Shown: positions 60,756-64,000 of the stretch, piece after piece
Layout of the letters: the number at the start of each line of letters is the position of its first letter
Numbering within the stretch: the first letter of the stretch is position 1
Made by a program: the position numbers and the translations under genes
Notes under the pieces: generated by a model
What the model was told of the DNA's origin: nothing
Seen by the model: the letters and a program-made list of their open reading frames with translations, nothing else
Database searches by the model: none
Source: Mesorhizobium sp.
GTDB taxonomy: Bacteria > Pseudomonadota > Alphaproteobacteria > Rhizobiales > Rhizobiaceae
Direction of reading: 5' to 3'
Assembly (NCBI RefSeq): GCF_017306585.1
Contig: NZ_JAFKIC010000108.1
Coordinates: forward strand, 40,834 to 104,833
Length of the DNA stretch: 64,000 nucleotides

Positions 60756-62252
60756 ATGTCCGGTCTTGCCATGCCGAAGCCAGACGACGCCACGATGCGC
60801 CGGCGCGACGAGATCGTCGCCGACATGCGCATCATTGTGCCGGGTGAGGGCGTGGTCGACGCGGCAAACGCCATGCGCGCCTTCGAGAGCGACGGCCTGA
60901 CCGCTTATCGCCAACTGCCGCTGGTCGTGGTTCTGCCTGAAACCGTGGCCCAGGTTTCCCGCGTGCTGAAATATTGCAACGACCGCAACATCCGCGTCGT
61001 GCCGCGGGGGTCGGGCACCTCGCTGTCTGGCGGCGCGCTGCCGCTGGAAGATGCGGTGCTGCTGGTCATGAGCCGCTTCAACCGCATCCTCCAGGTCGAT
61101 TACCCCAACCGCATTGTCGTCGCTCAGCCCGGCGTCACCAATCTCGGCATCACCGTCGCCGTCGAGCAGGAGGGCTTCTACTACGCTCCCGATCCATCCT
61201 CCCAGATCGCCTGCTCGATCGGCGGCAACGTCGCGGAGAACTCCGGCGGCGTGCACTGCCTGAAATACGGCCTGACCGCCAACAATGTGCTGGGCATCGA
61301 GATGGTGCTGATGAATGGTGAGGTGATGCGGCTCGGGGGAAACCACCTCGACGCAGAAGGCTACGACCTGCTCGGCGTCATGACCGGGTCCGAAGGCCTT
61401 CTCGGTGTCGTTACCGAAGTTACGGTGCGCATCCTGAAGAAGCCGGAGACAGCCCGCGCGCTTCTGATCGGCTTTCCGACCAGCGAGCAGGGCGGCCAGT
61501 GCGTGGCCGATATCATCGGCGCCGGCATCATTCCGGGCGGCATGGAAATGATGGACCGGCCGGCAATCCACGCGGCCGAGGATTTCGTCCATGCCGGCTA
61601 TCCCCTGGATGTCGAGGCGCTGCTGATCGTCGAGCTCGATGGCCCCGGCGTCGAGGTCGACCATCTCATCACCGCGGTCGAGGCGATCGCCATCCGCAAC
61701 GGCTCGACCACCTGCCGCATCTCGCAGTCCGAACAGGAGCGGCTGAGCTTCTGGGCCGGGCGCAAGGCGGCCTTCCCGGCGGTCGGCCGTATCTCGCCCG
61801 ACTATTACTGCATGGACGGCACCATCCCGCGCAAGGAACTGCCGCGCGTGCTGGCCGGCATGCGCGAACTGTCGGAGAAATACGGCCTCGGCGTCGCCAA
61901 TGTCTTCCACGCCGGCGACGGCAATCTGCATCCGCTCATCCTCTACGACGCCAACGTGCCGGGCGAACTCGACAAAGCCGAGAGTTTCGGTGCCGACATA
62001 TTGCGGCTTTGCGTCAAGGTCGGCGGCGTCTTGACGGGCGAGCACGGCGTCGGTGTCGAAAAACGCGACCTGATGCCGGAGATGTTCAGCCAGGTCGATC
62101 TCGACCAGCAGATGCGCGTCAAATGCGCCTTCGATCCCAACCACCTGCTCAACCCCGGAAAAATGTTCCCGCAACTGCGCCGCTGCGCCGAACTCGGCCG
62201 CATGCATGTGCATCGCGGGCAGTTGGCGTTTCCGGATATTCCGAGGTTTTGA
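60756..62252 (+). CDS. glcD: Glycolate oxidase subunit GlcD
   Basis: The 498-residue FAD-linked oxidase has the VAO-type FAD-binding domain (IRVVPRGSGTSLSGGALPLE, VAENSGGVHCLKYGLTANNV) and the C-terminal FAD-oxidase domain with NVFHAGDGNLHPLILYD and GEHGVGVEKRDLMPEMF. It oxidises glycolate to glyoxylate with GlcE and GlcF. AGGAGG precedes the ATG. GlcE normally follows at once; here the two are split by a DUF559 gene and repeats. Confidence 0.96.
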   Translation: MSGLAMPKPDDATMRRRDEIVADMRIIVPGEGVVDAANAMRAFESDGLTAYRQLPLVVVLPETVAQVSRVLKYCNDRNIRVVPRGSGTSLSGGALPLEDAVLLVMSRFNRILQVDYPNRIVVAQPGVTNLGITVAVEQEGFYYAPDPSSQIACSIGGNVAENSGGVHCLKYGLTANNVLGIEMVLMNGEVMRLGGNHLDAEGYDLLGVMTGSEGLLGVVTEVTVRILKKPETARALLIGFPTSEQGGQCVADIIGAGIIPGGMEMMDRPAIHAAEDFVHAGYPLDVEALLIVELDGPGVEVDHLITAVEAIAIRNGSTTCRISQSEQERLSFWAGRKAAFPAVGRISPDYYCMDGTIPRKELPRVLAGMRELSEKYGLGVANVFHAGDGNLHPLILYDANVPGELDKAESFGADILRLCVKVGGVLTGEHGVGVEKRDLMPEMFSQVDLDQQMRVKCAFDPNHLLNPGKMFPQLRRCAELGRMHVHRGQLAFPDIPRF

Positions 62253-62767
62253 TGAGGGCATCTCGAAGCTTAGGTTCCTCGCCCCCGCAAAGCGGGGGAG
62301 AGGTGGCTCGGGCGAAGCCCGAGACGGAGAGGGGGGCGGCCTATCAGCCAAGCCGGCGCTCGCCAGAAAAGATAGCCCGTGCGAGAAAGTTGCGCCACGG
62401 TGAGAATCAAGCGGAAGCAACTCTCTGGAATGAATTAAAGGCGAAAAAACTGGGCGGCTACAAATTCGTTCGCCAGATGCCCATTGGTCCGTATTTCGCG
62501 GATTTCGCCTGCCGAAGCCAAAGGCTGATCATAGAGCTGGACGGCAGCCAGCATGCGGACAGTTCATACGACAGGCGACGAGATGAATTCATGCGTGGCG
62601 AAGGCTTTTCGGTTTTGCGGTTCTGGAACTTCGATGTTCTGAAGAACACGAGGAGCGTTTGCGAAACGATCCTTGCGGTGTTTGAAGGGCGGCTCGCTGA
62701 AGATGTTGCCGCTGCGGACCTCAGGTTCGTTTTCGCGGCCAGGAAAATAGGAGACGGCACTCTATGA
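62252..62767 (+). CDS. DUF559 nuclease-like protein between inverted repeats
   Basis: The product is up to 171 residues. The core from about residue 38 is a DUF559 (Vsr/restriction-endonuclease-like) domain: ENQAEATLWNELKAKKLGGY, KFVRQMPIGPYFADFAC and RLIIELDGSQHADSSYDRRR, then FSVLRFWNFDVLKN. Putative active-site residues are the Asp of ADF, and Glu and Asp of ELDGSQH. The ATG at 62252 overlaps the glcD stop. A second choice is GTG 62303 inside the repeat, just after GGGGGAGAG. About 25 N-terminal residues (SSPPQSGGEVARAKPETERG) are encoded by the repeat. The stop is one base before the next repeat. Confidence 0.8.
   Translation: MRASRSLGSSPPQSGGEVARAKPETERGAAYQPSRRSPEKIARARKLRHGENQAEATLWNELKAKKLGGYKFVRQMPIGPYFADFACRSQRLIIELDGSQHADSSYDRRRDEFMRGEGFSVLRFWNFDVLKNTRSVCETILAVFEGRLAEDVAAADLRFVFAARKIGDGTL
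62273..62337 (+). repeat. Palindromic repeat copy R1 (left inverted repeat of DUF559 unit)
   Basis: This 65-bp element begins GGTTCCTCGCCCCCGC and ends with GACGGAGAGGGGGGC. It contains two hairpins: CCCCCGC/GCGGGGG and CTCGGGC/GCCCGAG. It overlaps the start of the DUF559 reading frame. The copy R2 on the far side is its near-perfect inverse. Confidence 0.9.
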
Positions 62768-62768
62768 G

Positions 62769-62832
62769 GCCCCCTCTCCGTCTCGGGCTTCGCCCGAGCC
62801 ACCTCTCCCCCATTTCATGGGGGCGAGGAACC
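62769..62832 (-). repeat. Palindromic repeat copy R2 (right inverted repeat of DUF559 unit)
   Basis: Read on the minus strand this 64-bp copy matches R1 apart from the loop of the first hairpin (ATGAAAT for GCAAAGC) and one G. The opposite orientation of R1 and R2, and the snug fit of the gene between them, look like terminal inverted repeats. Confidence 0.9.
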
Positions 62833-62867
62833 GATAATCGCAGAGGTCGCAGCCTTCACAAGCATGG

Positions 62868-62925
62868 TTTCCTCGCCCCCACAATATGGGGGAGAGGTGG
62901 CCGCGTAGCGGACGGAGAGGGGGCA
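62868..62925 (+). repeat. Palindromic repeat copy R3 (direct copy of R1, outside the unit)
   Basis: A third related copy lies 35 bp after R2 in the R1 orientation. It keeps GGTTTCCTCGCCCCC, GGGGGAGAGGTGGC and GACGGAGAGGGGGC, but the second hairpin arm is replaced by CGCGTAGCG. It ends 32 bases before glcE. Confidence 0.85.
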
Positions 62926-62957
62926 GCGCCGGCCTCTGTGGGGAAAGGCGCCAACCG

Positions 62958-64000
62958 ATGACCACCTTCACCCCAACCACTTCAGCCGAAGTTCTCTCCA
63001 CCGTCCAATGGGCGGCGGCTGAGGAATCCCCTGTCGAAATCCTCGGCCACGGCTCCAAGCGCGGCATTGGCCGTCCGCTTCAGACGGAGCACACGCTCGA
63101 CCTGTCGAAACTCTCCGGCGTCACCCTCTACGAGCCGGCCGAACTTGTACTGTCGGCGAAGGCCGGCACGCCGCTGGCCGAAATCGAAAGACTGCTGGCG
63201 GACAACGGTCAGCAGTTCGCGTTCGAGCCGATGGACTACGGTCCACTGCTCGGCGGCGAACCGGGCAAAGGTACCATCGGCGGTGTGCTTGGCGCCAACC
63301 TCTCCGGTCCGCGCCGGCTGAAGGCGGGTGCCGCGCGCGATCACGTCCTGGGCATCAACGTCGTGTCCGGACGCGGCGAGGCCTTCAAGTCCGGCGGCCG
63401 CGTGGTCAAGAATGTCACCGGCTATGACCTGTCCAAGCTGATGGCCAACAGCTGGGGCACGCTGGCCGTGTTCACCGACGTCACCTTCAAGGTGCTGCCT
63501 TCGGCCGAGACCGAGGTGACGCTTGCGGTCCGCGGCCTGCTCGACGATGCCGCGGCGAGCGCCATGGCCCTGGCGCTCGGCTCCAGCGCCGAAGTCTCCA
63601 GCGCTGCCCATCTGCCGGAGCGCGTCGCGGCGCGCGTGGCCGACGGTGCGCTCGGCAGCGATGCCGCCACGCTGCTGCGCGTCGAGGGCTTTGGTCCCTC
63701 CGTCGCCTATCGTGTCGGCGCGCTGAAGGGGCTGCTTGGCGGCGCCGGCGCTCTGGAAGAAATTTCGGGCGAGACCTCGCAGCGTGTCTGGCGAGATGTG
63801 CGCGATTGTAGGCCTTTCGCCGACGGCAGTGAGAAGCCGGTCTGGCGCGTGTCGATGGCGCCTTCGCAGGCGCATCAGATGGTGCTGACGCTGCGCATGC
63901 AGGCCGCCGTCAGCGCCTTCTATGACTGGCAGGGCGGGCTGGTGTGGCTGCGCATGGAGGAGGGCGATCCGGAGGCGGCCTTGCTGCGCGGGCTGTTGCG
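62958..64000 (+). CDS. glcE: Glycolate oxidase subunit GlcE (3' truncated by window edge)
   Basis: About 347 residues are present before the window ends. The FAD-binding domain is evident: VEILGHGSKRGIGRP, LLGGEPGKGTIGGVLGANLS, SGGRVVKNVTGYDLSKLMAN, and SWGTLAVFTDVTFKVLPSAE. GlcE is the second FAD subunit of glycolate oxidase. The ATG at 62958 lies 32 bases after repeat R3; a GGGGAAAGG stretch lies 10-20 bases upstream and is the only possible ribosome-binding site. GlcF should follow beyond the window. Confidence 0.94.
   Translation, partial: MTTFTPTTSAEVLSTVQWAAAEESPVEILGHGSKRGIGRPLQTEHTLDLSKLSGVTLYEPAELVLSAKAGTPLAEIERLLADNGQQFAFEPMDYGPLLGGEPGKGTIGGVLGANLSGPRRLKAGAARDHVLGINVVSGRGEAFKSGGRVVKNVTGYDLSKLMANSWGTLAVFTDVTFKVLPSAETEVTLAVRGLLDDAAASAMALALGSSAEVSSAAHLPERVAARVADGALGSDAATLLRVEGFGPSVAYRVGALKGLLGGAGALEEISGETSQRVWRDVRDCRPFADGSEKPVWRVSMAPSQAHQMVLTLRMQAAVSAFYDWQGGLVWLRMEEGDPEAALLRGLL

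Follow-up and report, generated by a model that had tools for sequence, protein, structure and literature searches.

A DUF559 nuclease gene between inverted triplex-type repeats at the glcD-glcE junction of Mesorhizobium: a probable example of a widespread kind of small mobile DNA

Why should a gene for a Vsr-like nuclease lie between two inverted palindromic repeats at the junction of two host genes? The question is raised by a locus near the end of a 64,000-nucleotide stretch of Mesorhizobium sp. (NCBI RefSeq assembly GCF_017306585.1, contig NZ_JAFKIC010000108.1, positions 40,834 to 104,833; hereafter the window), where a DUF559 gene and its two repeat arms separate glcD from glcE (Table 1). 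An earlier note on this DNA had suspected a mobile unit resembling the transposases associated with repetitive extragenic palindromic (REP) sequences. Our comparison of DUF559 loci suggests that the window unit probably belongs to a class of small mobile DNA that is widespread and consists of a stand-alone DUF559 gene and boxC/TM-type repeats mobilised by it.

The window gene is a free-standing open reading frame (ORF) between glcD and glcE, not located in an intron or intein, and its product matches the DUF559 profile of Pfam with an E value of 7e-36 (122.8 bits, cut-off 20.6). The arms, 63 nt each, are 92% complementary and are spaced 434 nt apart; in each, a C-rich hairpin is followed by another hairpin and then by a G-rich tail, with both tails pointing to the gene. 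Read in reverse, the left tail GGAGAGGGGG (62326-62335) matches the stem's purine strand (62294-62303) at 10/10 positions, and the arm could therefore fold as a hairpin with a third strand. The glcD stop codon (TGA, 62250-62252) shares a base with an in-frame ATG at 62252; because this ATG precedes the left arm, the arm would be translated if the ATG serves as start. The near-identical inverted repeats with a DUF559 gene filling the gap, and a third copy outside the unit (partial, from about 62860), had been noticed previously and were confirmed by the arms and the Pfam match. The inverted pair previously placed at 62273-62337 and 62769-62832 (64-65 bp) was refined in extent to 62273-62335 and 62770-62832, and the gene (stop codon 62765-62767) ends two bases, not one, before the right arm.

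The same genome carries five DUF559 genes. Visual inspection places three of them within inverted pairs and shows a doublet immediately upstream of the other two; repeat sequence differs among the five genes. Two draft contigs of this genome (L001 and L002; G000:C361 and C242) start within such repeats, which therefore seem to break assemblies, so that DUF559 units may be undercounted in drafts. Rfam searches with the window palindromes returned only sub-threshold miRNA hits, which were dismissed.

DUF559 loci were collected from 41 genomes of the genus (40 with matches), 96 genomes of the class, one per family (38 with matches), and 150 genomes of the phylum sample (46 with matches); further loci came from a scan of named genomes, of which the best 80 of 579 were confirmed. 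The first set, made up of class and genus loci, comprised 128 places after 7 of 135 had been dropped for a domain score below 80, and the second comprised 99 after removal of 3 duplicates from 102. In the first set, an inverted pair enclosed the DUF559 gene within 250 bp on both sides at 75/128 places with a score of at least 44, and at 80/128 with a score of at least 34; by sample, 33/48 class and 47/80 genus loci were flanked. Among 2560 anchors placed at random in these loci, none was flanked within this distance, and 0-2 of about 2100 were flanked with a 400-bp limit. Because no random anchor showed this arrangement and the window repeat has 34 blastn matches in its own genome (E<=0.001), the layout of the window is not attributable to chance. 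In the second set, 66/99 DUF559 genes were flanked compared with 2/332 other ORFs, and the gapped search over both sets found an inverted pair at 146/227 loci. A BLAST-based inverted-repeat finder, which gave a one-sided doublet at 7/81 unflanked genes versus 21/2120 random anchors, merged short doublets into one palindrome and was replaced by an ungapped finder. With the latter, 135/227 genes were flanked and 42 of the other 92 had a one-sided doublet, whereas 2147 random anchors yielded 8 flanked places and 88 one-sided doublets. The association of DUF559 with inverted repeats across loci is firm.

The pattern is not peculiar to the window locus and recurs across phyla. Flanked loci were found in taxa including Mesorhizobium, Sinorhizobium, Bradyrhizobium, Sphingomonas, Variovorax, Luteimonas and Pseudoxanthomonas, and also in metagenome-assembled genomes of Desulfobacteraceae and Chloroflexi. 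A tblastn search with one DUF559 domain returned 36 plasmid records, of which four from Deinococcus and six from Cyanobacteria were opened; flanks were inspected in four of the latter, leaving out L337 and L339 (a long fused ORF). C/G-rich boxes were visible by eye on both sides in the four Deinococcus and four cyanobacterial stretches (L321, L335, L336, L338). Azospirillum brasilense had a doublet on one side only at both loci inspected.

Repeat load across genomes was compared with the presence of DUF559, defined as a best match with E <1e-20; 12 class genomes with weaker matches were counted as without, and the same rule was applied to the phylum sample. Repeats were counted with a generic pattern drafted after the class and genus arms had been viewed, so the class count is not blind, and the count outside the class depends less on this choice. 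At least two pattern copies were present in 22/26 class genomes with a strong DUF559 match versus 3/70 others (p 1e-14), and in 17/19 with versus 0/20 without DUF559 when genomes of at least 3 Mb were considered. The corresponding figures were 25/29 versus 8/121 in the phylum sample, which shares ten genomes with the class sample, the window's own among them, and 8/9 versus 7/103 outside the window's class. A reversed-pattern control was near zero except in G181 (18 vs 53) and G096 (8 vs 280); G181 is one of the seven exceptions outside the class. Contrasts were also seen within single genera: G214 has four DUF559 genes and 212 repeats and G218 has none of either, and G171 has two genes and 58 repeats where G231 again has none of either. 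The co-occurrence beyond chance that the earlier note had envisaged thus holds, by flanking and genome counts, for the repeat as a structural class, while the link to the exact repeat sequence within the genus is only weak.

One alternative mobiliser was compared with repeat load, namely Y1_Tnp (PF01797), a profile that we take to cover both the REP-associated tyrosine transposases (RAYTs) and IS200. This profile had zero matches in the window's own genome and no link to repeats in the class, where it matched 5/25 repeat-bearing versus 16/71 other genomes (p=1), leaving RAYT unsupported as mobiliser in this sample.

The arms share a common design. A C-rich hairpin was predicted in 283/292 arms versus 216/1500 random stretches of equal lengths, and a stem score of at least 8 was reached by 263/292 versus 22/1500. 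Tails were scored by a purine third-strand rule (G.G, A.A, T.A) in 281 arms; of the 292, 9 were dropped for lack of a C-rich hairpin and 2 of the other 283 for a short tail. The own-tail score was 0.844 for arms and 0.600 for random hairpins. Across 122 unique stems, the fit between tail and own stem was 0.798, compared with 0.719 for tails of other units, and 0/2000 permutations reached the own value. The coupling between stem and tail is real, if imperfect. Judged from sequence, the arms are of the boxC/PIT/TMECO type, with which they share a hairpin and a mirror purine third strand, and they could in principle fold into an intrastrand triplex. The TMECO string given by Holder et al. (2015; PMC4666352) is CCCTCNCCCN3-6GGGNGAGGGN3GGGNGAGGG; in that paper, 3610 copies occur in 262 proteobacterial genomes, those in K-12 are intergenic and include five inverted pairs, and TM loci show raised variability in E. 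coli. Its authors found no transposase or integrase remnant near TMECO. The window repeat is a TMECO relative that departs from the strict string, in that its second loop contains a 17-nt hairpin and its stem reads CCTCGCCCCC, and differs from boxC/TMECO in that a DUF559 gene is tied to the repeats.

In E. coli K-12, ycjD is annotated as a DUF559 gene; between it and fabI lies a boxC copy that fits the strict TMECO string (the fabI-ycjD-sapF region is L213:3190-3761). The ycjD region was present over at least 80% of its length in 3364/5426 E. coli genomes. We sampled 60 rows spread over the ranking and dropped one partial record (H211), leaving 59 chromosomes with relatedness uncorrected; places were counted as joined matches to a ycjD+boxC query, each only roughly one boxC copy. 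The 37 rows with ycjD had 14-33 places (median 21) and the 22 chromosomes without it had 2-20 (median 4.5); five or fewer places were seen in 14 of these 22 and in none of the ycjD-bearing rows. In three ycjD-lacking strains that were opened, a clean empty site for ycjD was not found; a TetR/RND efflux cluster adjoins fabI.

Evidence on movement came from pairwise comparison of loci. A total of 228 DUF559 locus pairs align only as a local block, and 51 of these have arms in both members. Among the 51, the block edge lies within 15 nt of the arm end on the left in 23, on the right in 30 and on both sides in 19, and blocks run more than 60 nt beyond the arms once on the left and never on the right. 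The plasmid units of Deinococcus proteolyticus and Deinococcus sp. NW-56 (L332, L333) align at 78.6% over 421 bp, with proteins 87.5% identical and the alignment ending at the arms. These two units occupy different junctions of the same hpa operon, whose neighbouring genes are collinear: the D. proteolyticus unit lies between hpaB and an oxidoreductase gene, and the oxidoreductase-hpaE junction is empty in this species and filled in NW-56. The different positions in the two operons therefore indicate that the unit has moved as a block. The D. aetherius unit has a VOC gene on one side and a hypothetical gene on the other; a related unit in D. psychrotolerans sits between paaD and paaZ. Across the Deinococcus catabolic operons (hpa, paa; L332, L333, L334, L322), DUF559 units stand at different junctions with their tails outward. 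Shinella sp. PSBB067 has two adjacent genes where Sinorhizobium sp. K101 has a doublet, DUF559 and a doublet, an arrangement equally compatible with gain and loss. No empty site was found in Azospirillum, where each of the 7 Azospirillum records (among 15 with a match) spans 98-100% of the query together with the unit. For Sinorhizobium meliloti Ak57, unit and flanks were covered to at least 80% in 1/150 matching records, namely itself, which gave no clean comparison.

Table 1. Coordinates of the DUF559 unit and adjoining genes in the window
Feature	Position	Strand	Remarks
glcD (FAD-binding/oxidase subunit)	60756..62252	+	host gene upstream of the DUF559 unit; stop TGA 62250-62252
DUF559 (PF04480) nuclease-like ORF	62252..62767	+	171 aa from ATG 62252; start inferred; domain 62372-62683
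Left arm	62273..62335	+	hairpin stems 62277-62286/62294-62303; second hairpin 62307-62323; G-rich tail 62326-62335 toward gene
Right arm	62770..62832	-	inverted copy; tail toward gene
Third copy, partial, outside the unit	~62860..62923	+	pairs with the right arm as a tail-outward doublet
glcE (FAD-binding)	62958..64000	+	host gene downstream; continues beyond the window end

The age of the window copy was assessed within the genus. The end of glcD was present in 41/41 genomes, and the 30 glcD-glcE junctions that were read span 3-1002 bp, one of them 3 bp and 29 of them 65-1002 bp. The expectation that glcD and glcE normally abut therefore fails in this genus, where only that one junction of 30 is so short. 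Most are filled with various repeats or other genes, such as single repeats, a different doublet, which we take to be RIME1-like and which fills many junctions, or small genes. The junction is thus a hotspot in the genus for differing palindromic repeats and other small genes (window 62253-62957, L183-L212). The window-type DUF559 unit was found in 6/30 junctions read (G000, G007, G021, G026, G032, G036), and two further genomes (G002, G028) carry it at glcD-glcE by coordinates, giving 8/41 species. Among the six genomes, the ratio of nonsynonymous to synonymous substitution rates (dN/dS) of the gene was 0.05-0.16 over 13 of 15 pairs, the other two being left out for saturated dS. Because the unit occupies the same place in 8/41 species and dN/dS is low, the window copy is old and maintained. 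It is a long-settled copy under purifying selection, and a recent polymorphic insertion at glcD-glcE was rejected; RAYT genes are likewise long-settled and maintained. Tandem DUF559 genes about 1.1 kb apart were observed in L161 (G032:C24), each with its own arms, and, by coordinates, in G026:C2.

The predicted model of the window protein (mean pLDDT 78.7) matched NGO0050 (3hrl; E 3.7e-9, TMt 0.90), I-Bth0305I (3r3p; 4.4e-4) and Vsr (1vsr; 0.03). In an alignment of 53 DUF559 sequences including the window protein, R16, E23, W27, D52, L60, E63, D65, G66, D75 and R91 are invariant and H69 is near-invariant; E23, D52, E63, D65 and D75 together with H69 presumably form the catalytic active-site set. 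Caulobacter cells without the cytosine methylase ScmA need the DUF559 protein VsrA for their SOS response (PMC12907096), consistent with an enzyme that damages DNA in vivo. The simplest account of the association is that DUF559 is the mobilising enzyme, and we hold it likely, on the strength of that association, that the enzyme causes the spread of the repeats. In this class, boxC/TM repeats usually stand as an inverted pair around a DUF559 gene. In the mechanism that we propose, the nuclease would recognise its repeats when folded as a single strand or as a cruciform and would cut there, and host repair or recombination would then copy the DNA between the repeats to another site. Doublets without a gene may be acted on in trans by the same enzyme. 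The chemistry, with host repair after a folded strand is cut, is a guess drawn from the protein fold. The evidence covers layout, recurrence across phyla, co-occurrence, stem-tail coupling, the Deinococcus positions and purifying selection on the window gene; cutting by DUF559 and the cut-and-repair route are what we infer. More tentatively, as a proposal that is plausible rather than probable, DUF559 nucleases may have generated the boxC/TM repeats of Proteobacteria and the like repeats of Deinococcus and Cyanobacteria, and may form the core of an unrecognised class of tiny mobile elements with triplex-forming ends that spread by metal-dependent cutting and host repair in place of a transposase.

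Among the closest known systems is that of REPINs and RAYTs, in which palindrome doublets occur in many copies and the gene for a Y1 HUH transposase is flanked by its own repeats. The window family likewise has inverted palindrome doublets in many copies (the 34 own-genome matches) and a nuclease gene between its repeats; it differs in that the enzyme is a Vsr-like DUF559 protein instead of a Y1 HUH transposase (TnpA-REP) and the repeats carry a triplex-type tail. Flanking, repeat load and the Deinococcus operon lend good support to the earlier analogy with REP-associated transposases as a mode of action, though not to a recent polymorphic copy, and on our best reading DUF559 would work in a RAYT-like mode by different chemistry. 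Movement as a block with defined ends (Deinococcus L332 versus L333; 19/51 pairs with both edges near arm ends) resembles that of insertion sequences and miniature inverted-repeat transposable elements. RIME elements of rhizobia, reportedly described by Osteras in 1995, are also intergenic palindromic doublets. A link between DUF559 and boxC or palindromic repeats was not found in the titles and abstract beginnings of the open-licence papers listed, and an earlier report elsewhere is possible.

Several observations weigh against DUF559-driven mobility. With the ungapped finder, 50/227 DUF559 genes, about a fifth, had neither flanking pair nor doublet. Fewer than two pattern copies were found in 4/26 class and 4/29 phylum genomes with DUF559, and repeats occurred without a strong DUF559 match in 3/70 and 8/121 genomes, respectively. 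The sequence-specific link between repeat and gene within the genus is weak: the exact window repeat family was present in 8/8 genomes with a close gene (at least 80% identity) and in 17/33 without (p 0.011), and the association with copy number (Mann-Whitney U test, 0.005) fell to 0.07 after removal of the up to three copies belonging to the unit itself. Stem-tail coupling is moderate, the own tail exceeding the mean of others in 99/122 stems, and a tail fit of at least 0.9 was reached in only 109/281 arms. Tail direction varies, being inward in the window family and outward in Deinococcus and in doublets of some genomes (e.g. G077). Ten window-family doublets were picked from the 34 own-genome matches, nine with convergent, inward tails like the unit, and their spacers (17-91 bp) contained, by eye, no pieces of the DUF559 gene; the doublets are therefore not plain deletion derivatives of the unit, an origin rejected for this family. 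Target duplications were not identified at the empty and occupied junctions inspected, no systematic search having been made. Some ycjD-lacking E. coli strains have 14-20 places, so repeats can outlast the gene. Holder et al. reported that the triplex is stable in vitro and that their data do not support a stable triplex in vivo (PMC4666352). Finally, the authors of a Caulobacter study interpret the DUF559 protein VsrA as an enzyme of mismatch repair, proposed to act in very short patch (VSP) repair, and in their hands deletion of the other annotated Vsr-like gene had no effect (PMC12907096).

The unrelated spacers of doublets read without a gene fit an alternative in which DUF559 is a homing-type parasite that targets the repeat, the repeats spreading otherwise and the gene inserting into existing inverted doublets. 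The window protein shares the fold family of Vsr and of EDxHD homing endonucleases, its closest fold match after NGO0050 being I-Bth0305I, and one DUF559 gene has been assigned to the EDxHD homing family in another study (PMC9403480). Unlike the genes of homing endonucleases, the window gene stands free between repeats. Homing gives no reason why repeat load should follow the presence of DUF559, and Y1_Tnp, the other mobiliser compared, shows no link to the repeats. We consider homing unlikely.

Less likely still is a repair or maintenance function, in which a Vsr-like or structure-specific DUF559 enzyme processes triplexes or hairpins, repeat-rich genomes need it, and the linkage is functional. 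The VSP repair proposed for VsrA and the purifying selection on the window gene are in line with this. In Deinococcus radiodurans without N4-methylcytosine (m4C), a DUF559 gene is listed in a table of responding genes (PMC6712171), which also suits repair. Responses of DUF559 genes in two cytosine-methylation mutants (Caulobacter scmA, PMC12907096; D. radiodurans m4C, PMC6712171) hint at a link between the nuclease and DNA methylation. Repair leaves unexplained the position of the gene between inverted copies, the block edges near the arms and the differing places in one operon. That these are ordinary REP/REPIN elements moved by RAYT, with DUF559 a bystander, is suggested by the REPIN-like doublet layout and already disfavoured by the Y1_Tnp counts in the own genome and the class, which make it very improbable. 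Coincidence, with repeats and accessory genes both accumulating between genes as at the glcD-glcE hotspot with its other repeats and other genes, is scarcely credible given the 2/332 other ORFs and 0/2560 random anchors flanked.

Mobilisation by DUF559 would bear on a long-standing puzzle, as boxC-type repeats were already known from E. coli in the 1990s. They were mapped in 262 genomes with no mobility gene found (PMC4666352). The link to a small nuclease family, represented by YcjD in E. coli K-12, makes this puzzle experimentally tractable by knockout and counting. The recurrence of DUF559 with these repeats suggests that an enzyme family spreads a repeat class of hitherto unexplained origin. 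Vsr-like nucleases may be able to maintain families of palindromic repeats in the way that HUH enzymes do, and DNA capable of forming a triplex is the probable signal.

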